A stretch of DNA of 64,000 nt from Sabellastarte sp. h YS-2021 (Eukaryota; Annelida; Polychaeta; Sabellida; Sabellidae): assembly GCA_964017235.1 (NCBI GenBank), contig OZ024935.1:2728001-2792000 (forward strand), in the 5' to 3' direction. Under the pieces are notes generated by a model, which was given only the letters and a program-made list of their open reading frames with translations, was not told where the DNA came from and ran no database searches. The translations under genes and the position numbers were made by a program. This document shows positions 3,927 to 56,027 of this stretch, piece by piece; within the stretch, counting starts at the first letter, position 1, and each line of letters begins with the position of its first letter.

Positions 3927-3934
3927 CTAATTAT

Positions 3935-14496: not shown

Positions 14497-14652
14497 GTTG
14501 TAATGACTGGGTAGATCTGAGTGGGAATCGCACATGTCATGACTGTAGCCGATTCTCCACTGCGGCCTCCTGTCTGCGAGAGTTCAGGTGTGGCTGGTGT
14601 GGTAATGTGTACAACCCCACACTCGGCAAGTGCATAGAGGGAGATTTCTCAG
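14497..14652 (+). CDS. MEGF8: MEGF8-like, window exon 1: PSI module
   Basis: First recognisable exon of a multi-domain extracellular protein of the attractin/MEGF8 family. Vertebrate MEGF8 is a single-pass membrane protein that works with the MGRN1 ubiquitin ligase and MOSMO to dampen Hedgehog signalling. This exon encodes a plexin-semaphorin-integrin type cysteine module (CHDCSRFSTAASCL...CGWCGN). The acceptor is attcaccag|GT and the donor TTCTCAG|gtaggt, both phase 1. It starts mid-protein: the first CUB, EGF and first kelch propeller expected of MEGF8 are not found upstream in this window. The assignment rests on the whole exon series, in which a PSI/EGF block precedes a second CUB-EGF-kelch-PSI-EGF block. 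Confidence 0.85.
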
Positions 14653-14779
14653 GTAGGTCTACCATAGGTGTGAAAATCTAATATACTGTTTTAAAGGTGC
14701 CTTAATATCTTCCCCACATGGACGAATTGATTGCACTAAAATAACGAAAGAAGTGAGATGGTAAAGGGATGTTCTAAAA

Positions 14780-15240
14780 ATAAAAAGGGTCAGATGTTAT
14801 AGGGACACAGAAGATGACCTCGAGTAAAGTTGTAAAGCTACTGCAGTCTTGAGTAAAAATATACATGTGAAAATACACAGGAATGAAAGTACAGAAGTGA
14901 AAATATATAGGTGTACAAATACAGAAGTGTGCAAAACAAACAGGTGTATAAATACAAAAGTGTGAAAATATGCATGTGGACAAATACATAGGTGTGAAAA
15001 TATACAGGTGTATGAATACAGAGGTGTGGAAATTTGCATGTGTTTGTAAATACAAAGATATGGACTATGCAGGTGTGTAAATATACAAAGATGTGAAAAT
15101 GTGTAGGTGTGAAACAACACAGGTGTGAAAATATATGTGTGACAATCTGAATATGTGAAAAATATATAAACATACAAAAATATACAAGTGTGAAAACAGG
15201 TGAAATTGTGTAGGTGTGAATTAAGCAGGTGTACAAATGT
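14780..15240 (+). repeat. Degenerate minisatellite in MEGF8 intron 1
   Basis: Repeats of the form AGGTGTGAAAATAYA alternate with GTGTAYAAATACA, with variable 14-30 bp spacing. The first such word (ATAGGTGTGAAAAT) occurs right after the exon-1 donor at about 14664, so the array may derive from the donor side of the intron. Overlapping minus-strand ORFs here are repeat artefacts. Confidence 0.75.
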
Positions 15241-15896
15241 AAAGGGAGTTTGTTCTGTGGGACTATTTGACTAGTAACTTCCGTGTATTAGGCCATTGTA
15301 TCAGGTTGTGGGTTTAAACCTTAGCCTGGACCTTTAATAAGGAAAGTCTCCGTTGCTTGCCAAGTCCCTTCCAGTTATAGCACAAAGTCTCAATCGGCTT
15401 GTTGCACAGCTTTGCTCCACCTTTTCACAGGTGTCACATTGGTGACAATATCTGTGTGGTGTAGGCTTGGGGATAGGGTCCTGGGTGACTGCAAACAACA
15501 TGCCAGTGACATACTTCCCAGAGGGAGGATTTAACTTTGCCCAAAGACTTGTAACACACCGTGGAGTTATTATTGTTTGTTTAAAGGATTATGCAAATAC
15601 TTTTAGTTGGATCCTAGAAAACAAAATCAGAAGATGGGTCTTAGATCCCATGAACTTTTGAGATTGATCCGGATCACCGTCTGGATAGACAAAAATGCAT
15701 ATTTTCCCATTTACTCATTATGTGCCTTGGTGGAGGTATGTGCTCTCTGAGTGCTCCTGTTAAAAATAATCAAATTATTTCCACAAAACTTTAACATTGT
15801 ATTTTTGATTCTGTTTTTTGAGCCAGCAATAGTCGTGGTTTACACCCATCTTTTCCAAACGTAAATTAAAATTATGCATAAATCTACCAATTTCAG

Positions 15897-16116
15897 GTCC
15901 ATCGGGTTCAGTGAACTGCACGCGTTTCCTGGAGACTTCTCATAATGTCTCTGGTGTTGCCGCTTGGTCGTATGGGAAGCTACCAAATGTGGATGAATGT
16001 TCACTGGGTCTGCACGACTGCCACGCTAACGCCACCTGCATAAACACGTACACCGCCTACGAGTGCATGTGTGATCGGGGCTTCATTGGCAATGGTAGGG
16101 ATGTCTGCGACAGGAC
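15897..16116 (+). CDS. MEGF8: MEGF8-like, exon 2: Ca-binding EGF
   Basis: Encodes a short linker and then a calcium-binding EGF repeat: VDECSLGLHDCHANATCIN, ending CMCDRGFIGNGRDVC. The N-terminal D-E-C and the C-x-N pattern match EGF_CA. The acceptor is tttcag|GTCC (phase 1) and the donor AGGAC|gtaagt (phase 2). Confidence 0.88.
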
Positions 16117-16589: not shown

Positions 16590-17694
16590 TTACCCCACAG
16601 CCCTGTCAGGGTATTGTTTTCACCCATGGTGTCCGGATGGGCGGGCGGGCTGGCGGCGGGAAATAGTTTGTCTGGGCTGTATCTCAGAAACCGTAAGGTG
16701 TAGGAAGTTCATACTTGGCAGGGACATTGGTCGGGGGGTGTAGGTGTGCAATGTCATGGTCTGACCTTGACCTTGCCGTAGTGACCTTGAGTTTGAAAAT
16801 CTTGTCCGGGCTATATCTCGGCAACCATAAGGTGTAGGAAGTTGATACTTGGCAGGAACATTAGTTAGGGGTTGTAGGTGTGCAACGTCATGGTCTGACC
16901 TTGATTTGACCTTATCGTAGTGACCTTGACCTTTAAAATCTTTTGCGGGCTATATCGTGGAAGCCGTAAGGTGTAGGAAGTTGATACTTGGTAGGGACAT
17001 TGGTTAGGGGGTATAGGTGTGCAACGTCATGGTCTGACCTTGATTTGACCTTTGACCTTGCTGTAGTGACCTTGACCTATAAAATCTTGTCCAGGCTATA
17101 TCTCAGAGACTGTAATATGTAGGAAGTTTATACTTAGTAGGGACATTGGTTCATGGTTTTAGGTGTGCCACGTCATGGTGTGACACTGATTGACCTTTGA
17201 CCTTGCTGTATTGACCTTTAAAATCTTGTTGTACCTTTGGGTCTGTCTGTTGATGCAGATTAAGCACTGTTAAAGTCATATTAGAATTTATTAAGAATTT
17301 CCTTTTGCAAGTTCCCATTGTAACAGATGGATTTTCATCAAGTGAGCCACAGGCTTTTCTCTAACACCACACATAAGCATTCATTGAATGTATTGCCACT
17401 TCTGTATGCATAGGTAATATTCAAAACATCCAAACCATAATTCGGCCATTTTTGGTTTACTGATAAATGCTGTCATTTTATTATTGAATTGTCTTCTTTT
17501 AATACTTCATCTTTACATACATTTTGTTTCCTTAGATATTATTTTCTCTACTTAAGCATTATTTGGACCTTAATATAACGGACACTGTTCTGAAAGTATC
17601 TTGAACTTTGTACTGTTACACTACCTCTATATCTCATGGTGTTGAAAAATATTTCCCCAGGCTGTGGGGTACAGGCATCTCTGATGCTATTTTT
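16590..17694 (+). mobile_element. Family-1 element, copy c
   Basis: 5' TACCCCACAGCC at 16591. Then tandem units with TGACCTTGATTTGACCTTT-type clusters, the conserved 3' unique region, GGCTGTGGGGTA at 17660-17671, the hairpin GCATCTCTGATGC at 17675-17687 and a T-run. Located in MEGF8 intron 2. Confidence 0.82.
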
Positions 17695-17759: not shown

Positions 17760-19925
17760 TTGTGTTTCCAGCATCACTTCCATGTATGAGGTGTCCCTGT
17801 GACACTTACTCGCATGTATGAGGTGTCTCTGTGACACTTACTTGCATGTATGAGGTGTCTCTGTGACACTTACTCGCATGTATGAGGTGTCCCTGTGACA
17901 CTTACTCGCATGTATGAGGTGTCTCTGTGACACTTACTCGCATGTATGAGGTGTCTCTGTGACACTTACTCGCATGTATGAGGTGTCCCTGTGACACTTA
18001 CTTGCATGTATCAGGTGTCTCTGTGACACTTACTCGCATGTATCAGGTGTCCCTGTGACACTTACTTGCATGTATGAGGTGTCCCTTTGACACTTACTTG
18101 CATGTATGAGGTGTCTCTGTGACACTTCCATGTATGAGGTGTCCCTGTGACACTTACTTGCATGTATCAGGTGTCTCTGTGACACTTACTTGCATGTATG
18201 AGGTGTCTGTGTGACACTTACTCGCATGTATGAGGTGTCTCTGTGACACTTACTTGCATGTATGAGGTGTCTCTGACACTTACTTGCATGTATGAGGTGT
18301 CCCTTTGACACTTACTTGCATGTATGAGGTGTCTCTGTGACACTTCCATGTATGAGGTGTCCCTGTGACACTTACTTGCATGTATCAGGTGTCTCTGTGA
18401 CACTTACTTGCATGTATGAGGTGTCTGTGTGACACTTACTCGCATGTATGAGGTGTCCCTGTGACACTTACTTGCATGTATCAGGTGTCTCTGTGACACT
18501 TACTCGCATGTATCAGGTGTCCCTGTGACACTTACTTGCATGTATGAGGTGTCCCTTTGACACTTACTTGCATGTATGAGGTGTCTCTGTGACACTTCCA
18601 TGTATGAGGTGTCCCTGTGACACTTACTTGCATGTATCAGGTGTCTCTGTGACACTTACTTGCATGTATGAGGTGTCTGTGTGACACTTACTCGCATGTA
18701 TGAGGTGTCTCTGTGACACTTACTTGCATGTATGAGGTGTCTCTGACACTTACTTGCATGTATGAGGTGTCCCTGTGACACTTACTCGCATGTATGAGGT
18801 GTCTCTGTGACACTTACTCGCATGTATGAGGTGTCCCTGTGACATGTACATGCATGTATGATGTGTCTCTGTGACACTTACTTGCATGTATGAGGTGTCT
18901 CTGTGACACTTACTTGCATGTATCAGGTGTCCCTGTGACACTTACTCGCATGTATGAGGTGTCTCTGTGACACTTACTTGCATGTATGAGGTGTCCCTGT
19001 GACACTTACTCGCATGTATGAGGTGTCTCTGTGACACTTACTCGCATGTATGAGGTGTCTCTGTGACACTTACTTGCATGTATGAGGTGTCCCTGTGACA
19101 CTTACTCGCATGTATGAGGTGTCTCTGTGACACTTACTCGCATGTTTGAGGTGTCTCTGTGACACTTACTTGCATGTATGAGGTGTCTCTGTGACACTTA
19201 CTTGCATGTATCAGGTGTCCCTGTGACACTTACTCGCATGTATGAGGTGTCTCTGTGACACTTACTTGCATGTATGAGGTGTCCCTGTGACACTTACTCG
19301 CATGTATGAGGTGTCCCTGTGACACTTACTTCCATGTATGAGGTGTCTCTGTGACACTTACTCGCATGTATGAGGTGTCTCTGTGACACTTACTTGCATG
19401 TATGAGGTGTCTCTGTGACACTTACTTGCATGTATGAGGTGTCCCTGTGACACTTACTCGCATGTATGAGGTGTCTCTGTGACACTCGCATGTATGAGGT
19501 GTCCCTGTGACATGTACTTGCATGTATGATGTGTCTCTGTGACACTTACTTGCATGTATGAGGTGCTCTGTGACACTTACTTGCATGTATGAGGTGTCCC
19601 TGTGACACTTACTCGCATGTATGAGGTGTCTCTGTGACACTTACTTGCATGTATGAGGTGTCTCTGTGACACTTACTTCCATGTATGAGGTGTCCCTGTG
19701 ACACTTACTTGCATGTATGAGGTGTCTCTGTGACACTTACTTGCATGTATGAGGTGTCTCTGTGACACTTACTCGCATGTATGAGGTGTCTCTGTGACAC
19801 TTACTTGCATGTATGAGGTGTCCCTGTGACACTTACTTCCATGTATGAGGTGTCTCTGTGACACTTACTCGCATGTATGAGGTGTCTCTGTGACACTTAC
19901 TTGCATGTATGAAGTGTCTCTATGA
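17760..19925 (+). repeat. 32-bp minisatellite upstream of exon 3
   Basis: About 67 tandem copies of a 32-bp unit (TGTATGAGGTGTCYCTGTGA then CACTTACTYGCA). Variants use TATCAGG in place of TATGAGG and include a 26-bp short unit. Around 18.07-18.75 kb the short unit and a CCCTTTG variant recur together, giving a higher-order repeat of about 220-250 bp. It lies in intron 2 and merges into larger decayed units at 19925-20189. Confidence 0.95.
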
Positions 19926-20189
19926 CTGTATCTATGGCACCTACATCTATGAAATATTTCTGTGAATATATCCATATCGCCTCTTTCTATGTTTCAGGTA
20001 TCGCTGTTACTGTATCCATAGCACCTGATTCTTTGTTCAAGTTGTTACTTAACTCTGTCCAAAGCACCTGTTTCTATGATTCAGGTGTTAACTTAACTGT
20101 ATTCTTAGTACCTGTTTCTGTGTTTAAGTCATTACTACCACTGTATCCATTGTTTCTGTTTGTTAGATATTTATGACTCTATATTTCAG
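19926..20189 (+). repeat. Decayed tandem copies of the exon-3 acceptor
   Basis: Segments such as TTTCAGGTATCGCTGTTACT followed by GTATCCATAGCACCTG, and ATTCAGGTGTTAACTTAACT, resemble the true boundary tttcag|GTGTTACCATGACTG and the following TATCCATGGTACCTG of exon 3. At least two or three successive copies are visible. Confidence 0.75.
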
Positions 20190-20416
20190 GTGTTACCATG
20201 ACTGTATCCATGGTACCTGTTCCCAGGCCCGTCAGTACGAGTGTCTGTGTGAGACGGGGTGGACTGGACCCGATTGTAACACAAACTGCGGCTGTCACAA
20301 CCACAGCTCCTGTTCCAAAGGTCAGGGTCAGTGTGACGAGTGTCAGGACTTGACCACTGGGAAATTCTGTCAACTCTGTGTGCCGGGAGCCTATGGAAAC
20401 GCCACAACCCCTGTGG
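20190..20416 (+). CDS. MEGF8: MEGF8-like, exon 3: EGF and laminin-type EGF
   Basis: Encodes CYHDCIHGTC...CLCETGWTGPDC (EGF) followed by CGCHNHSSCSKGQGQC and a laminin-type EGF core (CQDLTTGKFCQLC). Acceptor atttcag|G in phase 2, donor CTGTGG|gtgagt in phase 1. Decayed copies of this acceptor and exon start lie just upstream. Confidence 0.9.
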
Positions 20417-20621: not shown

Positions 20622-21736
20622 GTTGTATCTACCAGAGAGATTTTTCATGTTAATGCTCTCAGCAGAAAACTACACCAGCTAGTTTCACCAAATTTCTTTG
20701 GGAGCTAAGCTTCACTGGACTGAAATTATTCCATTCTGAAAAACAAGATGGCTGCTCTGGGCTTTTCTTTAAAATTATCCAGCTTTTTCTACTGGCTGTT
20801 TCTCATAACTAGAAGGTTGAATCTCTTCATAGGTCATATATACAGATACACATGTCCTCTACAAGTATACAGACATTTGACCTTGAAGCTCATCATTCAA
20901 GGTCATCCATGGAGTGCCAAAACACCCCACATAGTAGCCTTTAAAAGTGCCTATATCTAACTTATAATTGGTCCCAGAGGTTTGGCATGTAAAGCCAATC
21001 GATAGGAAGTGCTTACGATTCACTTATTATTGGTCCTAGAGGTTTGCAATGTGAAACCAACCCATGGGAAATCATGGGCTTGGAATCTTATGATATGCTC
21101 AGATTTGACCTTGGGCCCCTCCTTCAAGGTCAAATGAGGACAGCCAAGCTTAAAAGTGCTTATAACTCTCTTATAATTGGTTCTAGGGGTTTGCAATGTG
21201 AAACCTACGTACAAGAAATCTTTAGCTGGGAATCTTCAGATGTGTTCACGATTGATCTTGGGCCCCTTCGTCAAGGTCAAACGAGGATAGCCTAATTTAA
21301 AAGTGCTTATAACTCACTAATTATTCTTGGTCCTAGAGTTTTGCAATGTGAAACCAACGTATAGGAAATCATGGGATAGGAATCCGGAAAAGCGAAAAGA
21401 TAGAGCGATTTCAGACTAATATTGGACCCCCTGGGTGCTAAGGACTACTCCTCTGGGAATTGTGAAAAATTCAGACTTTTCCAAATTTTGTCCGCCATCT
21501 AGAATTTCGGCGGAGTGGAAAATGTCATTTATCTCAAAAACTGTAACACATGGAGTGATTTCAATATTGGCACCACTGTATAATAAGGACTACTCCTTTA
21601 ATTCCTGTGAATAATTTAGAATTTTCTTAATTTCAGCCACATTCTTGAAAAATGCTGTTTATCTTCAAAACCATGTTAGTTGTCCTTTTCTGGTGCATAC
21701 ATCCTGCTTCTGGCCACGGATGCGCCCTTGGTCTAG
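20622..21736 (+). mobile_element. Family-2 Helentron-like element, copy f
   Basis: Starts GTATCTACC followed by GAGAGATTTT...GTTAA.GCTCT, as in copy e at 43.2 kb. It has about three units of the 147-bp repeat (TTTGACCTTGGGCCCCTCC), then a block resembling the family-3 array (GATAGAGCGATTTC, 21397-21640). It ends GGATGCGCCCTTGGTCTAG|T at 21736, the same tail as copy e. The 5' palindrome is missing and the 3' hairpin has decayed. In MEGF8 intron 3. Confidence 0.7.
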
Positions 21737-22554: not shown

Positions 22555-22618
22555 AGTTTGTACACATTTCAGTGGTCAGTGTGTACATTTCAGTGGTCAG
22601 TGTGTACATTTATTTCAG
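22555..22618 (+). repeat. Short tandem copies of the exon-4 acceptor
   Basis: TGTACACATTTCAGTGGTCA and GTGTACATTTCAGTGGTCAG precede the true acceptor GTGTACATTTATTTCAG|GC. Two decoy acceptors in steps of about 22 bp. Confidence 0.75.
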
Positions 22619-23494: not shown

Positions 23495-25286
23495 GTGAGT
23501 GGGTGTGATGTGTTACGATTTAAATGAAATGCAAAAATTACTGGTGTTTGTCCTCAGAATAGAGATTAAAGTCATCAAACAGTGTTCAAATTTTACCCCA
23601 TTCTCCACCAGTGGAAACTCTCATGTAAAAGCGTTTGTAGACAGCTCAAGTTGCTAAATCGCTCACTGTAAATGTTCACAGTCTTCCTAGACTTGCTCCA
23701 AGTCTTTGTATTTCCCGTTTCACCAAACCGACACATGGAATCAATATGAACCCACCTGATAAAATACACTATTGTCAACCCCAAGTTCTGGTAAAAAAAG
23801 TCATTCAGTCCTCATATAATACCTTGGGCAAAAGGACTTGAAGACAGTCTACAATCTTCCATAACTTCCTCATACATAATATTTTCAAACAACACATTCC
23901 AATTCATCAAGATTTTAATTACACAGCACTGAAACAAAGTAACATAACCATTCAGGAGTGTCAGCTGATAGCCAACAGTGCATGATGGATACATGTTACA
24001 GTCGACTGCTTTATAAGAGATAAGGTTTCAAGATTAGCATTCCCATGCTGCCTCAAGAAGTCTGTTCCTTTCATTTAACACAAAGTTAACTGTATGAGTA
24101 AAACTGTTTCTACATTTAGAACATCTGTGTATGTATGACACCATTCCCTGGACAGATTCAAGGCATCTCAGTGTCCCACTGATGCAGCAGTATACAAGCT
24201 ACTTTCTGTGTATCTCCATGTTTCTATGTGTGTAATCTGTATTTCTCTATACCTTTAGGACACTGTGTATGTATACGATGGCATTCCCCCGCTGATTCAG
24301 GGGGTGCGTTTATTTCACGCCAGTCATCTACTGGCTGCTTTCTGTGGGTCGGGTTTACAGCAGGAAGTGACGGTGGTGGCAGGAAGTGGTTACCTCACCG
24401 TGCTGTTTCAGGGAAACCGCTTGTTGGCAGGAGGTAGGTGTTTAAACTCCTGTGTGTCACAAACCTATGAAATCAACAAAGTAGTCTAAATAATTGTTAA
24501 AATTTCTGGAGCAAAGATATTTCCTTTCAAAAATAGTCAACCAGGTAACACTCAAAAGATGCCCCTACTTTTGGTGATCAGCAGAATTAAGGATTATTAC
24601 AACAGATTAAAGTTGGGTTTTTTACGAAATCAATACACAGTTGAGATGTCATCAGGACAGGCTGCCAGCAAATCCCATATGTTGGCATGAACTGGACTTG
24701 AATCCACAGCCACAGAGTGAGAGTCTCTAGAAACACTGGACGTGTAGCAGTCCTAAGTTTAAGTTTCTTCAAATACTCTCTTTTGACTGTAAAACAAATG
24801 ACACAAACATTTTTGTAACTCCACCAGTCATTTTGCCCCAGCCCTCTTGAACTCCTGTCCAAGTAAGACCTAGCCCCTCTGTTACATGCTTTAGGGAACA
24901 TCTTAAAACTCACCTTTTTAGTTGAAGCTTCCCCACTTAGTACTCTTCCCTGTGGTCGCACCCACAACTCTGGATTACTGACCTAGATCATCCCTGTCTC
25001 TTTGAATAATACTTTTGTTAACTTAGCAGTTAGCACACTGAGTTCCACATTGTAGGGAAGATATTAGGCCTGCAAGGCAGGAGATTAGATGAAAGCAAAG
25101 CATTTAAATGCCAAACAGTTTGACCCCCAGACCACTGGGCCTAAAACTGATCTAAATAAGCATTTTAATGTGACTTACATGTAGAAAGACACACTGCTGC
25201 AGCTCATTACCCTGGTTAGGGTATCAATTTCACAGCTCTGTGGTGTCTAATAACACTTAATACATTTGAATTTTTCAATTGCACAG
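23495..25286. other. Introns 5 and 6, no extra feature
   Basis: The non-coding sequence around exon 6 (24259-24433) shows no tandem array, terminal repeats or further exon. A minus-strand ORF near 24.6-24.9 kb has no recognisable domain and is not called. Confidence 0.5.
24259..24433 (+). CDS. MEGF8: MEGF8-like, exon 6: CUB domain, second half
   Basis: Encodes DTVYVYDGIPP...LLAAFCGSG...GYLTVLFQGN. The D-x-V-x-V-Y-D-G and A-x-F-C-G motifs are typical of CUB domains. The acceptor is ctttag|GACACT (phase 0) and the donor CAGGAG|gtaggt (phase 1). With exon 5 it forms the CUB expected between the two halves of MEGF8. Confidence 0.9.
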
Positions 25287-25489: not shown

Positions 25490-25659
25490 GTGAGTGGGCT
25501 CGTCTGGTCTCTGATGTAATCTTTATATAACCTGAAATTCATATCTCTGCATTGGCCATTTGGTTGGATGGGTCCTAAAGGATGGAAATGATAAGTATTT
25601 CTAATAAAAATTTAAATTGCTATAAAGTTTTCCAAGTATGTGCACTAACGTCTGTCTGT

Positions 25660-25727
25660 TCACTGTTTCAGGCTGGTCTGTGTAATTACAAGTTAGGGTT
25701 TGTACATCTTTCTTTTCACTATTTCAG
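25660..25727 (+). repeat. Single upstream copy of the exon-8 boundary
   Basis: CACTGTTTCAG|GCTGGTCTGT with following TAATTACAAGTTAGGGTTTG parallels the true CACTATTTCAG|GCAGGCCTTT with CACTGTGAGCCAGGGTTTGG, offset 56 bp. Translated, AGLCNYKLGF compares with the exon's AGLCHCEPGF. Confidence 0.85.
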
Positions 25728-25839
25728 GCAGGCCTTTGTCACTGTGAGCCAGGGTTTGGAGGTTTGGGATGTGAAGATAATCTGCAACCACTGACGTCCA
25801 TAGCAGTCACTCTGGAGACTGACCCCAGGAGAAGCCAAG
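25728..25839 (+). CDS. MEGF8: MEGF8-like, exon 8: EGF end and linker to kelch
   Basis: Encodes AGLCHCEPGFGGLGCED, which completes the EGF, and a linker to the propeller. The acceptor is ctatttcag|GCAGGC in phase 0. A decoy copy of the acceptor and exon start sits 56 bp upstream, out of frame with this exon. Donor CCAAG|gtgagt, phase 1. Confidence 0.85.
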
Positions 25840-34648: not shown

Positions 34649-34657
34649 GTGCGTATA

Positions 34658-39915: not shown

Positions 39916-40144
39916 TGCCTTCCTCTACACTCACTGCCGCTGTTCTGCGCCGCGGGCCGGTGCGGTCACGTCCTACAAGGTGGCAAGTCACTCTGTCCCG
40001 CAGCCTGCTCGCTATACACGCGCTGTGACGTCTGCCTCATGCACCCACAGTGCGGCTGGTGCACCAAGGAGGGCGCTAACGGGGACGGCTCCTGTGTAGA
40101 GGGCGGACTCAACAGTCAGTTTGACTCGGGGGAGTACAGGGCCG
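39916..40144 (+). CDS. MEGF8: MEGF8-like, exon 19: PSI-like module
   Basis: Encodes CLPLHSLPLFCAAGRCGHVL, then CPAACSLYTRCDVCLMHPQC, GWCTKEGANGDGSC and a linker. The acceptor is gtatttcag|TGC (phase 0, matching exon 18) and the donor GGCCG|gtaagt (phase 1). About twenty degenerate copies of this acceptor and exon start precede it. This last copy is called the exon because only it continues into the cysteine-rich frame. Confidence 0.86.
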
Positions 40145-40930: not shown

Positions 40931-41407
40931 ACGGGTTTCTTAGTATTTCTGAGCCCTGTGTGCATGTTTTTCAGACTGGTTTGTAAGTAAGCCCTGTCTG
41001 TGTGTTTTTCAGACTGGTTTGTAGGTATTTATTGAGCCCTGTCTGTGTGTTTTTCAGACTGGTTTGTAGGTATTTATTGAGCCCTGTCTGTGTGTTTTTC
41101 AGACTGGTTTGTAGGTATTTATTGAGCCCTGTCTGTGTGTTTTTCAGACTGGTTTGTAAGTAAGCCCTGTCTGTGTGTTTTTCAGACTGGTTTGTAGGTA
41201 TTTATTGAGCCCTGTCTGTGTGTTTTTCAGACTGGTTTGTAAGTATTTCTTGAGCCCTGTCTGTGTGTTTTTCAGACTGGTTTGTAGGTATTTCCGAGCC
41301 CTGTCTGTGTGTTTTTCAGACTGGTGTGTAAGTATTTCCGAGCCCTGTCTGTGTGTTTTTCAGACTGGTTTGTAAGTATTTCCGAGCCCTGTCCGTGTGT
41401 TTTTCAG
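40931..41407 (+). repeat. 36/45-bp tandem copies of the exon-20 acceptor
   Basis: About 11 units of TGTGTGTTTTTCAG|ACTGGT, TTGTAGGTATTTATTGAGCC or a shorter GTAAGTAAGCCC variant, leading into the true acceptor gtgtttttcag|ACTGGTATGG. Each copy retains a full polypyrimidine tract and AG. Many also have TTT|GTAAGT 8 nt later, a donor-like sequence. Confidence 0.93.
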
Positions 41408-41567
41408 ACTGGTATGGCGGGGGTGAGTTAGTATGGGCGTATATACAGTGCCCTCTGGAGAATGAATGTACAAACGGCCACCACGACTGTGACACGAATG
41501 AGGAGTGTATTGACATGGTGGACGGTTTCAGGTGTCAGTGTAAAGACGGATACAACAGAACACACAG
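41408..41567 (+). CDS. MEGF8: MEGF8-like, exon 20: Ca-binding EGF
   Basis: Encodes DWYGGGELVWAYIQCPLENE, then CTNGHHDCDTNEECIDMVDG and FRCQCKDGYNRTH, a calcium-binding EGF strongly reminiscent of the MEGF8/attractin C-terminal region. Acceptor gtttttcag|AC (phase 1), donor CACACAG|gtgagt (phase 2). Confidence 0.92.
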
Positions 41568-45600: not shown

Positions 45601-48164
45601 TGAAGGTCAAATGAGGACAGCCAAACTTAAAAGTGCTTATAACTTGTTTATTATTGGTCCTAGATGTTTGGGATGGTAAACCAGCATATAGAAAATCATG
45701 GGCTGGGAATCTTCTGGTGTGGTCGGATTTGACCTTGGGCCCCTCCTTGAAGATCAAATGAGGATAGCCAAACTTAAAAGTGCTTATAACTCGCTTATTA
45801 TTGGTCCTAGAGGTTTGGGATGGTAAACCAACCTATAGGAAATCATGGGCTGGGAATCTTCTGGTGTGGTCAGATTTGACCTTGGGCCCCTCGTTCAAGG
45901 TCAAATGAGGACAGCCAAACTTAAAAGTGCTTATAACTCACTTATTATTGGTCCTAGAGGTTTGGGATGGTAAACCAACATATAGGAAATCATGCGCTGG
46001 GAATCTTCTGGTGTGGTTAGATTTGACCTTGGGCCCCTCCTTCAAGGTCCAATGAGGACAGCCAAACTTAAAAGTGCTTATAACTCGCTTATTATTGGTT
46101 CTAGAGGTTTGGGATGGTAAACCAACCTATAGGAAATCATGGGCTGGGAATCTTCTGGCGTGGTCGGATTTGACCTTGGGCCCCTCCTTCGAGGTCAAAC
46201 GAGGATAGCCAAACTTAAAAGTGCTTATAGCTCGCTTATTATTGATCCCAGTGGTTTGGGATGGTAAACCAACATACAGGAAATCATGGGCGGGGAATCT
46301 TCTGGCATGGTCGGATTTGACCTTGGGCCCCTCCTTTAAGGTCAAGTGAGGACAGCCAAACTTAAAAGTGCTTATAACTTGCTTATTATTGGACTTAGAG
46401 GTTTGGGATAGTAAACCAACATATAGGAAATCATGGGCTGGGAATCTTGTGGTGTGGACGGATTTGACCTTGGGCCCCTCCTTCAAGGTCAAACGAGGAC
46501 AGCCAAAGGTAAAAGTGCCTATAACTCGCTTATTATTGGTCCTAGAGGTTTGGGATGGTCAACCAACATATAGAAAATCATGGGCTGGGAATCTTCTGGT
46601 GTGGTCGGATTTGACCTTGGGCCCCTCCTTCAAGGTCAAATGAGGACAGCCAAACTTAAAAGCGCTTATAACTCGCTTATTATTGGTCCTAGAGGTTTGG
46701 GATGGTAAACCAACATATAGAAAATCATGGGCTGGGAATCTTCTGGTGTGGTCGGATTTGACCTTGGGCCCCTCCTTCAAGGTCAAATGAGGACAGCCAA
46801 ACTTAAAAGTGCTTATAACTCGCTTATTATTGGTCCTAGATGTTTGGGATAGTAAACCAACATATAGGAAATCATGGGCTGGGAATCTTCTGGTGTGGTT
46901 GGATTTGACCTTGGGCCCCTCCTTGAAGGTCAAATGAGGACAGCCAAACTTAAAAGTGCTTATAACTTGCTTATTATTGGTCCTAGAGGTTTTGGTGCAT
47001 TGTCTTTACGGTGGATACAATTTGCATCGGTTTTCCGATGCGCTAGGTCTAGTTTGCTTCTATCTCCTTAACCGTGCGAGATAGAGCGATTTCGGCAAAA
47101 TTTTCGACCCGCAGGGTATCTGATAATTCTACTCTTGCCAATTTTTAAAAAGTTTTCCCCTTCCCAAAAATGGCGGCCATTTTGAATTTTAGAATTTTTG
47201 CCAAAAATGGCAGAACACAAATTTGCTTCTATCTCCTTAACCGTTCGAGATAGAGCGATTTCGTCGAAATTTTCGACCCACAGGGTATCTAAGGAATGCA
47301 ATCTTTGCAATTTTCAAAAAATTTTCCCCTCCCCAAAAATGGCGGCCATTTTGAATTTTAGAATTTTTGCCAACAATGGCAAAACACAAATTTGCTTCTA
47401 TCTCCTTAACCATGCGAGATAGAGCGATTTCGTCGAAATTTTTGACCCACATGGTATCTAAGGAATGTAATCTTTGCAATTTTCAAAAAATTTTCCCCTC
47501 CCCAAAAATGGCAGCCATTTTGAATTTTCGAATTTTTACCAACAATGGCAAAACACAAATTTGCTTCTATCTCCTTAACCATGCGAGATAGAGCGATTTC
47601 GTCGAAATTTTTGACCCACACGGTATCTAAGGAATGCAATCTTTGCAATTTTCAAAAAATTTTCCCCTCCCCACATATGGCGACCATTTTGAATTTTCGA
47701 ATTTTTGCCCAAAATGGAAAAACACAAACTGGCCTTAATCGTGCAAAATAGAGTTATTTCGTTGAAATTTTCGACCCATAGGGTATCTAAGAAATGTACT
47801 CTTGGCAATTTTCAAAAAAATTTCCTTTTCCCAAAAATGGCGGCCATTTTGAATTTTCAAATTTTTGCCAAAAATAGAAAAACAGGAATTTGCTTCTATC
47901 TTCTTAACCGTGCAAGATAGAGTGATTTCGTCAAAATTTTCAACCCAACCAATGCAAAAAGGCATGAAGCTGAAATAATTTACATCTACACTAATAAATA
48001 TTTAAGCATCATTGATATATTTTACAAATGAAACAGGGTCTTGTAAGACTACTGTACAATTTGGGCAAGGTTCATGGGGTGGACATTACACATGATAATG
48101 TGTGTTCTTCTATGCTATCCTGTTTCTATTCGCATCTACTATCAACAGGGCGTCCTATTTCTAG
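42602..48164 (+). mobile_element. Family-3 element, copy h (interrupted by copy e)
   Basis: 5' hairpin ATGTCCACCCCCCTGGGGGG at 42602. The first 400 bp are nearly identical to copy g. Tandem units of about 170 bp follow, with GAGATAGAGCGATTTCG and AAAATGGCGGCCATTTTGAA (43.0-43.17 and 47.05-47.95 kb). The right end carries GGGGTGGACAT (48076-48086, exact inverse of ATGTCCACCCC), hairpin ACACAT-GATA-ATGTGT (48088-48103) and CCTATTTCTAG|T (48164). Copy e is nested inside the array. Confidence 0.8.
43176..47052 (+). mobile_element. Family-2 Helentron-like element, copy e, with 147-bp array
   Basis: 5' palindrome GTATCCACCGGA-AGCA-TCCGGTGGATAC (43178-43205). About 23 tandem units of exactly 147 bp (43.5-47.0 kb), inverted CGGTGGATAC (47009-47018), perfect hairpin GCATCGG-TTTT-CCGATGC (47024-47041), then GCTAGGTCTAG|T. 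Flanks reconstruct a family-3 unit (AAAACACAA / TTTGCTTCT) without a target duplication, as expected for Helitron-like insertion. Minus-strand ORFs with a 49-residue period are repeat artefacts. Confidence 0.85.
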
Positions 48165-48199: not shown

Positions 48200-48376
48200 T
48201 GAATTTTATGTGTTTTTCCCAGAACCAGTATTGTTTTTTTGAATTTTAATGTATTTATCCAAGAGCGACTATTGTTTTTGTGAATTTTAATGTATTTATC
48301 CATGAACCAGTGTGTAGTTTTATGTGAACTTTAATCTATTTATCCATGAACCAGTGTGTAGTTTTATGTGAATTTT
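48200..48376 (+). repeat. 44-bp minisatellite, left part (exon-22 acceptor family)
   Basis: Units TGTATTTATCCATGAACCAG, TGTGTAGTTTTATGTGAATT, TTAA of 41-44 bp. The array is cut at 48376 by the family-1 element d and resumes at 52295. Confidence 0.9.
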
Positions 48377-48420
48377 TACCCCACAGCCCTTAAGGGCTGT
48401 CGGGGTATTGTTTTCACTAA

Positions 48421-50430
48421 CTTGTATCAGATAGACAAACTGTACCTTGGTACAGCAACTCCATAGGAGATCTCCGAAGAAAGAGACGCAGATTAGAAAG
48501 ACGATGGAAACTTCACAAAACCCCTTCAAATCTTATAGCATGGAAGGGTGCCAAAAATGATGTGACTGAAGCGATCAAACGTGCAAAGACTTTGTTTTAC
48601 ACAAAGAGCATTGATGAGTGTAAAGGTGACCAAAAGAAGCTTTTTGGTATTTTAAATTCTCTCCTGCAAAAGAAAAAAATAACTTTCTTACCAAGTGGCG
48701 ACAAATCCTCACTCCCCCAGATATTCAATGATTTCTTCATCCAGAAAATTGACAAAATTCTGGAAGGTCTACACGCAGAACAAACAGGTGCAGATCCACA
48801 TGAGTTTGATGTCCCTGCTACTTCTAGATTAGAGACACTCTGTTCCACAAATGAAGAAGAAATCCAGAAGCTGATTCTCGGATGTCCTAACAAGCAATGC
48901 AGCCTCGACCCAGTCCCAACTGCAATAGTAAAACAATGCAGCAAAACCTTTGCTCCTATCTTCACCAAGATAATCAATGCATCACTACACTCAGGAATAG
49001 TGCCTTCCAGTTTCAAAAAATCTATTGTCACTCCACTATTGAAAAAGAACTCTTTGAATCCAGAAATACTTAAAAACTACCGCCCAGTATCGAATTTGTC
49101 CTTTGCCTCAAAACTTCTAGAACGGGTGGTTGCACACAGACTGAACAATTATAAAGATTCAAACTGTTTGAGAGAAAAGTTCCAATCTGCAGACAGACGG
49201 AATCATAGCACAGAAACTGCCACTCTGAAGATCATGAACGATTTGCTCATGGCTGCTGACAGAGGGGAATGCAGTATTCTAGTCCTGCTAGATCTCTCAG
49301 CAGCATTCGACACTGTAAACCATCAAATTCTCCTTGAAAGGCTTCAAAACCAGTTTGGAATAGTTGGAAAGGCACACAAATGGATCAAGTCCTATCTCCA
49401 CAACAGGTGTCAAAAGGTCATGGTAGAACACTTTGTCTCAAATGAAGTTAGACTAACACTGAATGTCCCGCAGGGTTCCATTTTGGGCCCTAGTGAATAC
49501 TCCGATTTCACCGAGCCAGTGGGTCGAGTGATTAGGTCGAAATCAGTATCTCCTCATTTTTATGCAGATGATTCACAATTGTATGTCCATTGCAATCCAA
49601 AGGACCAAAACTCAGTTCAATCTGCTATTCATAAAATTGAAGACTGCTGCAAAGAAATCAAATCATGGATGACCACCAACTATTTAAAATTAAATGATGA
49701 CAAGACAGAAGTTTTAATGGTTGGAACCAAATCACAGTTACATAAATCGAACATCCATACCATACTTGTTGGCAACACAAATATTGAAGTAAAAGACTGT
49801 GTCAAAAACATTGGTGTATACATCGACTCAGAACTGACAATGAAACAGCATGTCAATCAAATAACATCAACAGCCTGGTTTCATCTCAGAAACTTGTTCA
49901 AGATCAGGAAATTTCTCACCAAAAGTGCATGTGTCACTTTGGTACATGCCTTTGTCACCTCTCGCCTTGACCTTTATAACTGCCTGCTCTACAATTGTCC
50001 CTCGGGTCTCAAAAATAAGCTCCAAAGAGTTCTCAACTGCGCTGCCAAGCTCATCTTTCACAAAAGGAAATTCGACTCTGTCACACCACTCTTAAAAAAG
50101 CTTCATTGGCTCCCAATCCAACAAAGGATAGAATTCAAAATTCTACTGATTACCTTCAAATGCATAAATGGACAAGGTCCAGAATACCTCTCTGAACTGC
50201 TCACTCCTTATACCTCAACACGTGCTCTCAGATCAGCTGACAGCTTCTTGCTGCGTGTTCCAAGGACGCGACTAAAAAACTACGGTGATAAAGCATTCGA
50301 AAAGGCAGCATCTGAACTCTGGAATCACCTACCAATTTATATCCGTACCAGTTCATCAGTCAGCTCATTCAAGAAACAACTAAAGACTTATCTCTTCAAA
50401 CAAGCTTACTCAATACAATCTGTCAACTAG
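48421..50430 (+). CDS. LINE reverse transcriptase (5'-truncated ORF2), CR1/L2-like
   Basis: Open without a stop from the insertion junction at about 48421, earlier than any start codon, so the ORF is a truncated remnant rather than a gene with its own start. The N-terminal part reads WYSNSIGDLRRKRRRLERRW, the linker that follows the endonuclease in CR1/Jockey-type LINEs; the endonuclease is absent. RT motifs: YRPVSNLSF, LVLLDLSAAFDTVNHQILL (motif A), VPQGSILGP (motif B) and FYADDSQLY (motif C, YADD at 49561-49572). A C-terminal region LHWLPIQQRIEFKILLITFK is typical of these elements. The intact frame implies recent insertion. Clade (CR1, L2, Rex or Crack) is uncertain. Confidence 0.9.
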   Translation, partial: LVSDRQTVPWYSNSIGDLRRKRRRLERRWKLHKTPSNLIAWKGAKNDVTEAIKRAKTLFYTKSIDECKGDQKKLFGILNSLLQKKKITFLPSGDKSSLPQIFNDFFIQKIDKILEGLHAEQTGADPHEFDVPATSRLETLCSTNEEEIQKLILGCPNKQCSLDPVPTAIVKQCSKTFAPIFTKIINASLHSGIVPSSFKKSIVTPLLKKNSLNPEILKNYRPVSNLSFASKLLERVVAHRLNNYKDSNCLREKFQSADRRNHSTETATLKIMNDLLMAADRGECSILVLLDLSAAFDTVNHQILLERLQNQFGIVGKAHKWIKSYLHNRCQKVMVEHFVSNEVRLTLNVPQGSILGPSEYSDFTEPVGRVIRSKSVSPHFYADDSQLYVHCNPKDQNSVQSAIHKIEDCCKEIKSWMTTNYLKLNDDKTEVLMVGTKSQLHKSNIHTILVGNTNIEVKDCVKNIGVYIDSELTMKQHVNQITSTAWFHLRNLFKIRKFLTKSACVTLVHAFVTSRLDLYNCLLYNCPSGLKNKLQRVLNCAAKLIFHKRKFDSVTPLLKKLHWLPIQQRIEFKILLITFKCINGQGPEYLSELLTPYTSTRALRSADSFLLRVPRTRLKNYGDKAFEKAASELWNHLPIYIRTSSSVSSFKKQLKTYLFKQAYSIQSVN

Positions 50431-50549: not shown

Positions 50550-52294
50550 TAATGTCCGGATGGGCGGGCTGGCGGGCGGCGGGAAATAGATTGTCCGGGC
50601 TGCATCTCAGAAACCGTAAGGTGTAGGAAGTTCATACTTGGCTGGGACATTGGTTGGGGGGTGTAGGTGTGCAACGTCATGATTTGACCTTGATTTGACC
50701 TTTGACCTTGCCGTAATGACCTTGAGTTTGAAAATCTTGTCCGGGCTATATCTCGGCAACCATAAGGTGTAGGAAGTTGATACTTGGCAGGGACATTAGT
50801 TAGGGGTTGTAGGTGTGCAACGTCATGGTCTGACCTTGATTTGACCTTTGACCTTGCCGTAGTGACCTTGAGTTTGAAAATCTTGTCCGGGCTATATCTC
50901 GGCAACCATAAGGTGTAGGAAGTTGATACTTGGCAGGGACATTAGTTAGGGGTTGTAGGTGTGCAACGTCATGGTCTGACCTTGATTTGACCTTTGACCT
51001 TGCCGTAGTGACCTTGACCTATAAAATCTTGTCCGGGCTATATCTCGGAAACCGTAAGGTGTAGGAAGTTGATACTTGGTAGGGACATTGGTTTGGGGGT
51101 GTAGGTGTGCAACGTCATGGTGTGACCTTGATTTGACCTTTGACCTTGACCTATAAAATCTTGTCCAGGCTACATCTCAGAGACTGTAAGGTGTAGGAAG
51201 TTTATACTTGGTAGGGACATTGGTTGAGGGTTTTAGGTGTGCCACGTCATGGTGTGACACTGATTGACCTTTGACCTTGCCGTAGTGACCTTGACCTATA
51301 AAACCTTGTCCGGGCTATATCTCAGCAACTGTAAGGTGTAGGAAGTTGATACTTGGTAGGGACATTGGTTAGGGGATGTAGGTGTGCTACGTCATAGTGT
51401 GACCTTGATTTGACCTTAGCCGTAGTGACCTTGACCTATAAAATCTTGTCGAGGCTATATTTCGGAAACTATAAGATGTAGGAAGCTGATACTTGGTGAG
51501 GACATTGGTTGGGGGTAGTAGGTGTGCAACATCATGGTGTGACCTTGATTTGACCTTGCCGTAGTGAACTTGACCTATAAAACCTGGTCCGGGCTATATC
51601 TTGGAAACCGTAAGGTGTAGGAAGTTGATACTTGGTAGGGACATTGGTTAGGGGATGTAGGTGTGCTACGTCATAGTGTGACCTTGATTTGACCTTTGAC
51701 CTTGCTGTAGTGACCTTGACCTATAAAATCTTGTCCAGGCTATATCTCAGAGACTGTAAGGTGTAGGAAGTTTGTACTTGGTAGGGACATTGGTTGAGGG
51801 TTTTAGGTGTGCCACGTCATGGTGTGACACTGATTGACCTTTGACCTTGCTGTATTGACCTTTAAAATCTTGTTGCACCTTTGCGTCTGTGTGTTGATGC
51901 AGATTAAGCACTGTTAAAGTCATATTAGAATTCATTAAGAATTTCCTTTTGCAAGTTCCCATTGTAACAGATGGAATTTCATCAAGTGAGCCACAGGCTT
52001 TTCTCCAACACCACACATAAGCATTCATTGAATGTATTGCCACTTCTGTATGCATGGGTAATATTCAAAACATCCAAACCATAATTCGACCATACAAATG
52101 AAAATCAAAATGGGAGAAGTCTTAAAGCTTCATAATTTTTAGTTTACTGAATTGTGTTGTTTTAATACTTATTCTTTACATGCAATTTCTTTCTCTTAGA
52201 TGTTATTTTCTCTACTTAAACTTTACTTCTATATCTCATGGTGTTGAAAACTATTTTCCCAGGCTGTGGGGTACGGGCATCTCTGATGTTATTT

Positions 52295-52530
52295 TAATGT
52301 ATTTATCCATGAACCAGTGTGTAGTTTTATGTGAATTTTATTGTATTTATCCATGAACCAGTGTGTAGTTTTATGTGAATTTTATTGTATTTATCCATGA
52401 ACCAGTGTGTAGTTTTATGTGAATTTTATTGTATTTATCCATGAACCAGTGTGTAGTTTTATGTGAATTTTATTGTATTTATCCATGAACCAGTGTGTAA
52501 TTTTATGTGAACTTTAATGTATTTATCCAG
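52295..52530 (+). repeat. 44-bp minisatellite, right part, up to the exon-22 acceptor
   Basis: Five units of 44 bp. Each begins ATTTATCCATGAACCAGTGT; the true boundary is ATTTATCCAG|GGCGCTCAGTGT. In the repeats the AG has been lost (CCATG), so they are not functional acceptors. The array was continuous with 48200-48376 before element d inserted. Confidence 0.92.
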
Positions 52531-52695
52531 GGCGCTCAGTGTGAGGTCTGTGAGCCTCTTTACGTGGGTAACCCAGTGAATGGGGGCATGTGTCTGTCAT
52601 GTACACACTACTGCAATGAACACAGTGATGTGTGTCTCTCCACAGACGATTACAACCGATCCCAGGCCAACAAACTCCCACTGGATAGAGTCGGG
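52531..52695 (+). CDS. MEGF8: MEGF8-like, exon 22: laminin-EGF continuation
   Basis: Encodes GAQCEVCEPLYVGNPVNGGM, then CLSCTHYCNEHSDVCLSTDD. Phase 0-0, acceptor atttatccag|GGC and donor GTCGGG|gtgagt. It completes the laminin-EGF begun in exon 21. Minisatellites abut both of its splice sites. Confidence 0.9.
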
Positions 52696-54930
52696 GTGAG
52701 TAAAACAGGTCACAATCTGTAAAACAGGTCACACCCAACCGGTGAATCAGGCGGGACATGAGAGTAACACAGGTTGCACAAGTGTAACACACAGTACAGT
52801 ACACAGAGATAAACATTGATGAAACAGAGAATACATAGCAGGTGAAACAGGTAAAACAGACTGGACATGACAGTAACACAGGTCACAAATAACAGGTAAA
52901 ACAGGCTGGACATGACAGTAACACAGGTCACACGTAACAGGTAAAACAGGCTGGACATGACAGTAACACAGGTCACACATAACAGGTAAAACAGGCTGGA
53001 CATGACAGTAACACAGGTCACACGTAACAGGTAAAACAGGCTGGACATGACAGTAACACAGGTCACATATAACAGGTAAAACAGGCTGGACATGACAGTA
53101 ACACAGGTCACATGTAACAGGTAAAACAGGCTGGACATGACAGTAACACAGGTCACACATAACAGGTAAAACAGGCTGGACATGACAGTAACACAGGTCA
53201 CATGTAACAGGTAAAACAGGCTGGACATGACAGTAACACAGGTCACACATAACAGGTAAAACAGGCTGGACATGACAGTAACACAGGTCACACATAACAG
53301 GTAAAACAGGCTGGACATGACAGTAACACAGGTCACAAATAACAGGTAAAACAGGCTGGACATGACAGTAACACAGGTCACACATAACAGGTAAAACAGG
53401 CTGGACATGACAGTAACACAGGTCACACATAACAGGTAAAACAGACTGGACATGACAGTAACACAGGTCACACATAACAGGTAAAACAGGCTGGACATGA
53501 CAGTAACACAGGTCACATGTAACAGGTAAAACAGACTGGACATGACAGTAACACAGGTCACACGTAACAGGTAAAACAGGCTGGACATGACAGTAACACA
53601 GGTCACACATAACAGGTAAAACAGACTGGACATGACAGTAACACAGGTCACACATAACAGGTAAAACAGGCTGGACATGACAGTAACACAGATAACATAT
53701 AACAGGTAAAACAGACTGGACATGACAGTAACACAGATAACATATAACAGGTAAAACAGACTGGACATGACAGTAACACAGGTAACAAATAACAGCTAAA
53801 ACAGACTGGACATGACAGTAACACAGGTCACACATAACAGGTAAAACAGGCTGGACATGACAGTAACACAGGTCACACATAACAGGTAAAACAGGCTGGA
53901 CATGACAGTAACACAGGTCACACATAACAGGTAAAACAGACTGGACATGACAGTAACACAGGTCACACATAACAGGTAAAACAGGCTGGACATGACAGTA
54001 ACACAGGTCACAAATAACAGGTAAAACAGACTGGACATGACAGTAACACAGGTAACAAATAACAGCTAAAACAGACTGGACATGACAGTAACACAGATAA
54101 CATATAACAGGTAAAACAGACTGGACATGACAGTAACACAGATAACATATAACATGTAAAACAGGCTGGACATGACAGTAACACAGGTCACACATAACAG
54201 GTAAAACAGACTGGACATGACAGTAACACAGGTCACAAATAACAGGTAAAACAGGCTGGACATGACAGTAACACAGGTCACACATAACAGGTAAAACAGG
54301 CTGGACATGACAGTAACACAGATAACATATAACAGGTAAAACAGACTGGACATGACAGTAACACAGATAACATATAACATGTAAAACAGGCTGGACATGA
54401 CAGTAACACAGGTCACAAATAACAGGTAAAACAGACTGGACATGACAGTAACACAGATAACATATAACATGTAAAACAGGCTGGACATGACAGTAACACA
54501 GGTAACAAATAACAGGTAAAACAGGCTGGACATGACAGTAACACAGATAACATATAACAGGTAAAACAGACTGGACATGACAGTAACACAGGTAACAAAT
54601 AACAGCTAAAACAGACTGGACATGACAGTAACACAGGTCACAAATAACAGGTAAAACAGGCTGGACATGACAGTAACACAGGTCACACATAACAGGTAAA
54701 ACAGGCTGGACATGACAGTAACACAGGTCACACATAACAGGTAAAACAGGCTGGACATGACAGTAACACAGGTCACACATAACAGGTAAAACAGGCTGGA
54801 CATGACAGTAACACAGGTCACAAATAACAGGTAAAACAGACTGGACATGACAGTAACACAGGTCACAAATAACAGGTAAAACAGGCTGGACATGACAGTA
54901 ACACAGGTCACAAATAATAGAAGAAACTGT
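52696..54930 (+). repeat. 45-bp minisatellite after the exon-22 donor
   Basis: About 46 copies of AACAGGTAAAACAGGCTGGA, CATGACAGTAACACAGGTCA, CACAT. The first degenerate words (GTAAAACAGGTCACA) start right at the exon-22 donor gtgagtaaaacaggtcac. Each unit contains a donor-like CAG|GTAAAA. The 45-bp step explains several very long minus-strand ORFs (up to about 736 codons), which are rejected as genes. Confidence 0.95.
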
Positions 54931-55019
54931 AAAAACAGGAGACAAAATTCTGTCCATAGATTGGTCATTCAGTATTACACCTTAGTGTTACATTATATGT
55001 TCTGCTATATTCTCTCCAG

Positions 55020-55168
55020 GTACTGAGCTGGCTGACCCAGGGCCCGTCTGACTCGCAGACCACTCTATGTGTCCACTGTGGGGATAATTCTCTCGGCCTG
55101 GACTGTTCCCAATGTCAACCTGGATACTTCCGGCTGGACAGCAAGCCAAAAACTGAGCCATGTAGCAT
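55020..55168 (+). CDS. MEGF8: MEGF8-like, exon 23: EGF-like module
   Basis: Encodes VLSWLTQGPSDSQTTLCVHC, then GDNSLGLDCSQCQPGYFRLD. Acceptor ctctccag|GTA (phase 0), donor TAGCAT|gtaagt (phase 2). Confidence 0.88.
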
Positions 55169-55380
55169 GTAAGTAGAGAGAGTTGGTGACAGGGGCTTGG
55201 AGTAACTTCATTCCACAACTCAAATGTCTGCTTTTTTCAGTAGAATTCCTCCGATATGATATTATTACAGACATTATTGTCGCATACGATTTCACCACTT
55301 GGATTGGTTTTAAAAAGGGGAGAAGTGTTTGGACCATTTGGATGAACCAGTTTTCCATGTATAACCTTAACATTACTTGA

Positions 55381-56027
55381 TGTCTACAGGTGTGTTAGGG
55401 CTATAGTTATTTCTGTTACAGAGTAGTATTAGTACTACAGTAACATGTGTGTATTCTTAAATCAAAGTTTGTCTCTTGTAGCGCTTAATCTCCCTTTATT
55501 AATCAGACAATATGCCCCCCTTTGTATGTCTATCTTCCAGTATGGGTGAATTATGTTTCTTCCTGTTTCTTTATTTCTCTGTCAATGTGTAGATGTGTCA
55601 CGGTAAGTCACTTTTGTTACCAGAGTACTAGTACCACTGTAACACCCATGTCATCTTAAATCTAAATTTAATTTTCATAGCGCTTATTCTCCCCTTTATT
55701 TAGCGGATAGTACTCCTCCCTTTATCGGGGGCCACAGTGGCAGAGTGGTAACACTCTCGCCTCCCATCTGAGGCTGGGGTTCAGTTCCCGGCACGGCCTC
55801 AAGTGAGAAAGCTGGTAGTTGCTTGTCGTTGGTCGGCAGTTTACAGTACAGAACCCTGACAAACTCTATGTACTGGTTTCCTCTGCCCTTCCAACTACCC
55901 GTGGTGATATGACCTGTACAGTGTTGAAAGTGACGTAAAACCCCAAATAAATAAATCCTCCCTTTATCTGTCCATCTATCTGCCAGTAGTGGGACATGTT
56001 TATTCCCTTAATACTGTCTATATGTAG
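55381..56027 (+). repeat. Two decayed copies of the exon-24 acceptor region
   Basis: Blocks of roughly 210 bp share, in order, a CAG|GTGTGTTAGG- or GTAG|ATGTGTCACGG-like boundary, TTACAGAGTA.TA.TAC, GCGCTTAATCTCCC and a CTATCTTCCAGTA segment. The last leads to the true acceptor tatgtag|GTGTGAGTGTCATGG. The second copy has been split by a SINE. Confidence 0.72.
55727..55955 (+). mobile_element. tRNA-derived SINE with 13-bp target duplication
   Basis: A-box TGGCAGAGTGG and B-box GGTTCAGTTCC are correctly spaced for a tRNA-type Pol III promoter. Body of 229 bp, then the 3' end GTGTTGAAAGTGACGTAAAA and an AAATAAATAAA tail. Exact duplication TCCTCCCTTTATC flanks it at 55714-55726 and 55956-55968. 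Similar ends are common in bivalve SINEs (recalled, not searched). Confidence 0.9.

Follow-up and report, generated by a model that had tools for sequence, protein, structure and literature searches.

Tandem copies of splice junctions in the introns of an attractin/MEGF8-type gene of a sabellid annelid

Do the tandem repeats in the introns of a gene arise anywhere along it, or are they seeded at its splice junctions? The question is raised by a stretch of 64,000 nucleotides from Sabellastarte sp. h YS-2021 (contig OZ024935.1, positions 2,728,001 to 2,792,000), which is called the window here and to which all coordinates refer. It carries on its + strand part of an attractin/MEGF8-type gene. 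A sequence-only reading of the window had claimed that the repeats in many of the introns of this gene consist of copies of the adjoining acceptor or donor together with the end of its exon, that they are independent events seeded at the junctions, and that they may be an undescribed way for introns to grow. In our analysis, copies of the junction were found in the adjacent intron at ten junctions, and we consider it highly probable that these repeats are "mirages," the name given to tandem duplications that arise locally from a unit extending over a splice junction. The gene was chosen for its repeats, and the P values below are valid for this one gene and not for the genome.

Reading frames, splice-site scores, and phase were used to model the gene as 25 exons, with exons 1 to 24 built first and the 25th added afterwards; the acceptor of a 26th exon was also located. 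All 24 introns of the 25-exon model are GT-AG, and the exons joined across the exon-proximal sites give a frame of 1418 residues without a stop. Pfam domains detected in the joined protein were laminin/attractin EGF, attractin beta-propeller/Kelch, and PSI domains, and when a portion of the protein was searched against PDB sequences, the sole match was to NELL2, through an EGF domain. The name MEGF8 is one that we presume from the domain order, rather than from comparison with a named orthologue. Because the first exon opens inside a codon, with no earlier exon visible in the reading frames, and because the gene continues toward the right end, it probably runs past both ends of the window. Exon numbering follows that of the sequence-only reading, with the suffix A for an acceptor and D for a donor.

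Copies of splice junctions in the adjacent introns

Two tests were used to detect junction copies. In the junction-anchored test, the best intron match was anchored on the junction and had to score at least 5 on each side, and each of the 46 junctions of introns 1 to 23 was compared with all of these introns. The junction's own intron ranked first for nine junctions, versus two expected, with scores of 28 for E3A, 23 for E6A, 27 for E8A, 66 for E12A, 44 for E16D, 80 for E18D, 43 for E19A, 43 for E20A, and 41 for E22A. Chance resemblance, which the sequence-only reading had named as the finding that would speak against it, does not account for these scores: the highest score among the 1012 mismatched junction-intron pairs was 21, compared to 23 to 80 for the own introns. 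Eight of the ten junctions that had been firmly named (E3A, E8A, E12A, E19A, E20A, E22A, E16D, and E18D) were borne out in this way.

In the shuffle test, 140-bp queries from the 48 junctions of introns 1 to 24 were aligned with gapped scoring to at most the nearest 2600 bp of intron, excluding the nearest 70 bp, and the scores were compared to those of 200 dinucleotide shuffles and of the 23 other introns. Eleven neighborhoods scored above all shuffles and all other introns (E3A, E6A, E12A, E16D, E18D, E19A, E20A, E22A, E22D, E24A, and E25A). Nine of the eleven alignments cross the junction, that of E24A by 5 nt; the E22A alignment ends at the junction but crosses it with 32 nt of exon in a separate local gapped alignment, and the E22D alignment does not cross. 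The scores of E1D, E11D, and E15A were matched by just one or two of the 200 shuffles, but here too the alignments stop short of crossing the junction. E8A went undetected in this test, its copy falling within the 70 bp that were left out.

Taken together, the two tests place junction copies in the adjacent intron at E3A, E6A, E8A, E12A, E16D, E18D, E19A, E20A, E22A, and E25A, and at each of these the tandem unit spans the exon-intron boundary. The least strong of the ten are E25A (shuffle-test score of 34 versus a shuffle maximum of 31) and E6A (23 versus 21 in the mismatched pairs), both of which are additional to the junctions named by the sequence-only reading. Both types of splice site are affected, with eight acceptors and two donors. 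Acceptors outnumbered donors at 9 of 24 versus 2 of 24 when E24A was included (Fisher P = 0.036) and at 8 versus 2 when it was not (P = 0.072). The copies are private to their own intron, and unit lengths, copy numbers, and degree of decay differ from junction to junction. Copy number ranges from one degenerate extra copy (E6, E8, and E25) through two copies (E12) to arrays of 5 (E18), 11 (E20), 20 (E19), and 48 (E16), and exon sequence contributes between about 9 nt (E20) and 73 nt (E18) to the unit.

At the E3 acceptor (exon start 20190; region 17766 to 20221), degenerate 44-bp copies of the acceptor and exon start lie at 19960-20180. The anchored score compares to a mismatched maximum of 18 at E3A, and the shuffle-test score was 48, versus a shuffle maximum of 36. 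A 68-copy array of 32-bp units at 17776-19926, in the same region, has a weaker tie to E3 than the neighboring 44-bp copies do, and it probably, but not certainly, shares their origin. The E6 acceptor (24259; region 24041 to 24302) has a single old copy of the acceptor and approximately 44 nt of exon, 139 bp upstream, which is identical at 89 of 134 positions in a gapped alignment and scored 40, versus a shuffle maximum of 29. One 56-bp tandem copy is found at the E8 acceptor (25728; region 25647 to 25741), where the best mismatched anchored score was 16. The E12 acceptor (31261; region 31093 to 31325) is preceded by two 84-bp copies, each made up of 19 nt of intron and 65 nt of exon, with 131 of 149 positions identical in the alignment; the upstream copy lacks the AG, and the nearer copy matches the true junction at 18 of 19 intron and 54 of 65 exon positions. 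The E12 copies, at 84 bp or 28 codons each, are in an open frame with the exon (31095-31451), and splicing to the nearer of the upstream acceptors would lengthen the protein in frame by 28 residues.

The arrays at the two donors consist of 24-bp units at the E16 donor (exon end 34648; region 34627 to 35949), with 44 of the 48 copies found having the GT, and 138-bp units at the E18 donor (exon end 37324; region 37252 to 38045), where one of the five intronic copies is identical to the true junction at 160 of 163 positions. The 20 intronic copies at the E19 acceptor (39916; region 38334 to 39967) are 77/79-bp units, and all 20 have the AG. Over 38264-40167, none of the three + frames of this 77-bp array is interrupted, and they run for 572 to 618 residues. 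A database protein of 571 residues (P0121) derives from it and is likely a false gene call; a search with the array-wide frame matched only the window's own protein. The 11 intronic copies at the E20 acceptor (41408; region 40917 to 41416) are 45-bp units.

The array of the E22 acceptor (52531) consists of 44-bp units, with approximately 32 nt of exon in the alignment, and lies in two pieces, 48208-48383 and 52286-52535 (near region 52286 to 52562), with the best anchored match at 48347, in the far piece. A LINE open frame and dispersed repeats lie between the two pieces, which suggests that the array predates the insertion of both. The LINE frame itself, at 48421-50427 in intron 21, is a long non-LTR reverse-transcriptase open frame, and a database protein is 97% identical to it over 92%. 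At the E25 acceptor (62974; region 62849 to 62997), which was outside the range of the sequence-only reading, an old copy of the acceptor and exon start lies approximately 100 bp upstream, within a cluster at 62863-62997.

Four further sites had been put forward, two of them with a "maybe." For E24A (56028; region 55501 to 56032), a possible old duplication with its copy at 55501-55597, the shuffle-test score of 34 was above all 200 shuffles (maximum 28) and 68 nt of intron were aligned, but the anchored score was 12, the rank was 8 of 23, and the exon part is 5 nt, making it a weak case of a junction copy. E1D is marginal and was not accepted as a junction-spanning copy: a gapped alignment identical at 59 of 94 positions does cross the junction, with an anchored score of 14 and a rank of 2 of 23, but the best match is on the intron side only and was equaled by 1 of 200 shuffles. 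E4A was not upheld. A 21-bp tandem array (22555 to 22618) does adjoin this acceptor, but the anchored score was 13 (rank 10 of 23), 5 of 200 shuffles equaled the shuffle-test score, and the alignment does not cross the junction. Neither was E22D, next to which a 45-bp array of 46 copies (52717 to 54930) begins 22 bp past the donor; the match of the junction to this array begins 5 nt inside the intron and has no exon part. Of the unit lengths that had been listed, those of 24, 32, 44, 45, 56, 77/79, 84, and 138 bp were found, as was one of 21 bp, and the unit of about 210 bp was absent from the tandem-repeat scan. The proposed intron growth is borne out to the extent that junction-seeded arrays make up 7298 of the 37510 bp of introns 1 to 23 (about 7.3 of 37.5 kb), within boundaries that we set and with the whole E3 region included.

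Placement of the duplications relative to the junctions

If ordinary minisatellites arise uniformly and those that survive spare exon interiors, some will touch junctions by chance. We investigated how often this would occur in the gene using a list of 14 local-duplication events that we curated from 31 scan clusters. The E16D and E22A clusters were each merged from two, and the E18D/E19A cluster was split in two. Dispersed arrays were left out, as were the repeat at 797-865 (outside the span), E6A and E24A (not found by the scan), the repeats at 28015, 42740/42898, 58622/58979, and 60664/60837 (presumed, without proof, to be of mobile-element origin), and a 21-bp array at 30961 that lies inside the E12A cluster. 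In the seed-placement null, only the seed unit was placed, with array and dispersed sequence removed. Nine of the 14 events cross a junction, compared to 1.25 expected (P = 2.3e-7), and when 28015, 42740/42898, 58622/58979, 60664/60837, and 30961 were added as five misses, the count was 9 of 19, compared to 1.88 expected (P = 2.1e-5). In the second null, arrays were put at random positions of the intron to which they belong and could reach up to 60 bp into the exon. Here 9 of 13 arrays cross, versus 2.15 expected (P = 2.9e-6); leaving out E6A, since it came from a junction-based search, gave 8 of 12 versus 1.99 (P = 1.5e-5). The junction-poor stretches 1-14496 and 56155-62860 also speak against uniform birth, having yielded six separate repeats in the scan: arrays or dispersed units at 797-865, 7959-8360, and 10013-10718 and pairs at 58622/58979, 60664/60837, and 62132/62432.

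Several results weigh in the opposite direction, and part of them favor uniform birth. The list of 14 events includes five without a junction crossing, namely those in intron 1, next to E4, in intron 14, and in intron 22 and the 62132/62432 pair. When E8A, E16D, E20A, and E25A were scored as non-crossing, 5 of 14 events remained (P = 0.005), and the harshest count, 5 of 19, left a P of 0.03. Between the anchors 100 bp into the intron and those 20 bp into the exon, the frequency of local copies hardly varied (7 to 9 of 46 anchors), so coverage does not peak at the junction. A circular shift of the whole gene model showed no excess, with 6 of 21 clusters holding a junction compared to a null mean of 7.6 (P = 0.94) and 7 junctions inside clusters compared to 22.6 (P = 0.995). 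None of the five dispersed arrays crosses a junction, but only 0.21 crossings were expected and these arrays are no real control. That the event list is our own curation must also be kept in mind. The excess at junctions depends on the null chosen. The circular shift was set aside as a test of seeding because it moves exons into the interior of long arrays, an arrangement that selection would not permit, and it mainly shows that exons avoid arrays. On the exon side, copies fade out, from 8 of 46 anchors at +20 to 3 at +30 and 0 from +70 on, and only 5 of 163 exon-interior anchors have a copy, all in E12, E18, or E19.

The claim that separate events were seeded at junctions more often than random birth allows is supported for this gene by two of three tests, that is, by both placement tests but not by the cruder shift test. 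We regard uniform birth as unlikely. Since junction crossings exceed what uniform seeding would give, it is likely that duplication in this gene has some source that is biased toward junctions.

The window also contains other repeats. Arrays with units of 139-169 bp lie at 10019-10715, 16668-17227, and 50591-51862, at 21007-21384 and 43566-46992, and at 28402-30697 and 47053-47947; unlike the intron-private repeats, several of them are present in more than one location. Intron 24 contains a 40-bp sequence with a donor-like AAGGTAAG twice, 300 bp apart, at 62132-62171 and 62432-62471. Several long open frames at 59200-61550 are retroelement-like candidates.

Splice signals and the direction of copying

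The splice signals of the copies bear on how the repeats arose and whether they are maintained. At E16D, E18D, E19A, and E20A, the AG or GT is kept in 80 of 84 copies, and 40 of the 84 score at least as high as the real site; the matrices used hold consensus values, not trained ones, and the E6A and E25A copies are outside the copy counts. Elsewhere, the AG is kept in five of six 44-bp copies at E3, one of two at E12, the one copy at E8, and none of the five near or nine far copies at E22. Because so many copies keep the dinucleotide and nearly half of those at the four sites equal or exceed the real one, the true splice site would not stand out by the strength of its sequence alone. Exon definition, or closeness to the rest of the exon, is by inference a natural candidate for what does.

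Another explanation would have selection maintain the repeats, whether as decoy splice sites, for their structure, or for recursive splicing; the first two had been suggested by the sequence-only reading. In the four arrays, conservation of the dinucleotide slightly exceeds that of the remaining compared stretch (1.00 versus 0.92 at E19A, 1.00 versus 0.94 at E20A, 0.96 versus 0.93 at E16D, and 1.00 versus 0.97 at E18D, values compared without a significance test), as such selection would have it. These differences are small, the AG is missing from the E22A copies of both pieces at the aligned position and has been lost from one of the two E12 copies, and the degenerate single copies at E6 and E25 give no sign of upkeep. 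The suggestion found no clear support, and we judge selection of this kind to be most improbable.

The high scores of many copies would also be compatible with a reverse order of events, in which arrays were born in introns and the spliceosome later moved in, turning parts of the array sequence into exon ends. The unit at E20, which has just about 9 nt of exon in common with the array, fits this course as well. At E12 and E22, the only two junctions examined in this respect, the exon part in common codes for conserved domain residues, the start of E12 lying within the Kelch propeller and that of E22 within a laminin/attractin EGF domain, which indicates that copying at these two junctions ran from exon to intron. 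The residues GLYGH at the start of E12, in addition, are invariant in the window and in all six database relatives listed by a search with the open frame over the E12 array. Capture of exon ends appears very unlikely to us.

One of these six relatives seems to have an array of its own at the homologous acceptor. In P0122, an animal sequence from a 2981-base contig, the exon start GLYGHSAVYHALSQA is preceded by two in-frame copies, matching at 13 and at 14 of 15 residues. Two stretches that lie farther upstream can, with a shift of one base, be read as the same peptide at 14 and 13 of 15 residues, while the best of 1000 shuffled peptides reached 12. The copies are evenly spaced at 23 residues, or 69 bp (positions 5, 28, 51, 74, and 97). 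The array was read from the protein only, with a query that held three copies and so favored such a match; the P0122 DNA was not found among viral contigs. Because the copies in P0122 resemble its own exon and those in the window resemble the window's exon, the two arrays would be independent or separately homogenized, and the relationship of P0122 to the window's gene may be orthologous or paralogous. In P0123, an intron seems to occupy the equivalent position, with no copies in frame, and P0124 to P0127 seem to read on without an intron at the E12 site.

Mirages in lancelets and the growth of introns

Structures of this kind are not undescribed, as had been supposed. In PMC3087553, tandem repeats over exon-intron boundaries are reported under the name mirages for the lancelet Adh3 and globin genes, with units of 10-72 bp (Adh3) and 150-160 bp (globins BflGb6/BflGb9), haplotype differences, somatic instability at Adh3, and apparently regular mRNA splicing, and the generating mechanism is termed unclear there. 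Further lancelet mirages are described for PGBD5 (units of 60 and 108 bp) and troponin C (TnC) in PMC3902484; in both papers, mirages are minisatellite-like duplications of 5' or 3' boundaries with the AG or GT in many copies. Introns of lancelet VCBP3 contain complete or partial exons akin to adjacent ones, some with canonical splice sites (PMC2632668), and tandem repeats are reported in lancelet huntingtin scaffolds, with no junction placement mentioned in the available portion of PMC2206037. The repeats described here match the lancelet mirages in three structural features: units that span the boundary, occurrence at both 3' and 5' sites, and the AG or GT in many copies. Lancelet mirages were, in the sources as available, reported a few genes at a time, whereas here ten junctions of one gene are affected, placement was tested, copies number up to 48 with a firm link to the junction (68 in the less certain E3 array), and the structures are known from sequence alone. 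The literature matches listed, among which most subscription papers were outside the search, included no genome-wide survey of mirages and no report of the same structure in other animals. New here are the density of junction copies, the placement statistics, and P0122 with four upstream copies of a different, 69-bp unit.

Two other systems are related in part. Introner elements are dispersed copies of one family; like the repeats here, they are intron-borne and tied to splice sites, but the junction units are absent from the other introns of the studied gene, as the scores of the mismatched pairs show. In Rogers-type intron gain, reportedly, exon segments that carry AGGT are duplicated in tandem. 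Local tandem duplication supplies new splice sites in both situations, but here existing introns appear to grow, and none is newly shown. Rogers-type gain is named in PMC3087553, and the potato RdRp case is given in PMC4974935.

Under the mirage explanation, a tandem duplication over a junction would provide two usable copies of the splice site. The exon-proximal copy would stay in use, and the extra copy would turn intronic and become nearly neutral. Unequal exchange or slippage may then expand and homogenize some of the copies into minisatellites and lengthen the intron.

In a broader proposal, the splice junctions of some animal lineages would act as hot spots where tandem duplications are born. 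The process responsible would be linked to transcription or splicing, polymerase pausing and RNA-DNA hybrids at acceptors being examples; the same junctions would be struck repeatedly and independently across lineages, and this would be a main route of intron growth. Such repeated strikes on one junction are suggested by the two arrays at the homologous E12 acceptor, of 84-bp units in the window and of 69-bp units in P0122; we put the proposal forward tentatively and hold it to be doubtful as a whole. Ten mirages in graded states of decay, together with P0122, make it directly testable, as they do the question of how the splice site is chosen among dozens of near-identical copies, and the answers would be relevant to the growth of introns and to mistakes made in predicting genes.

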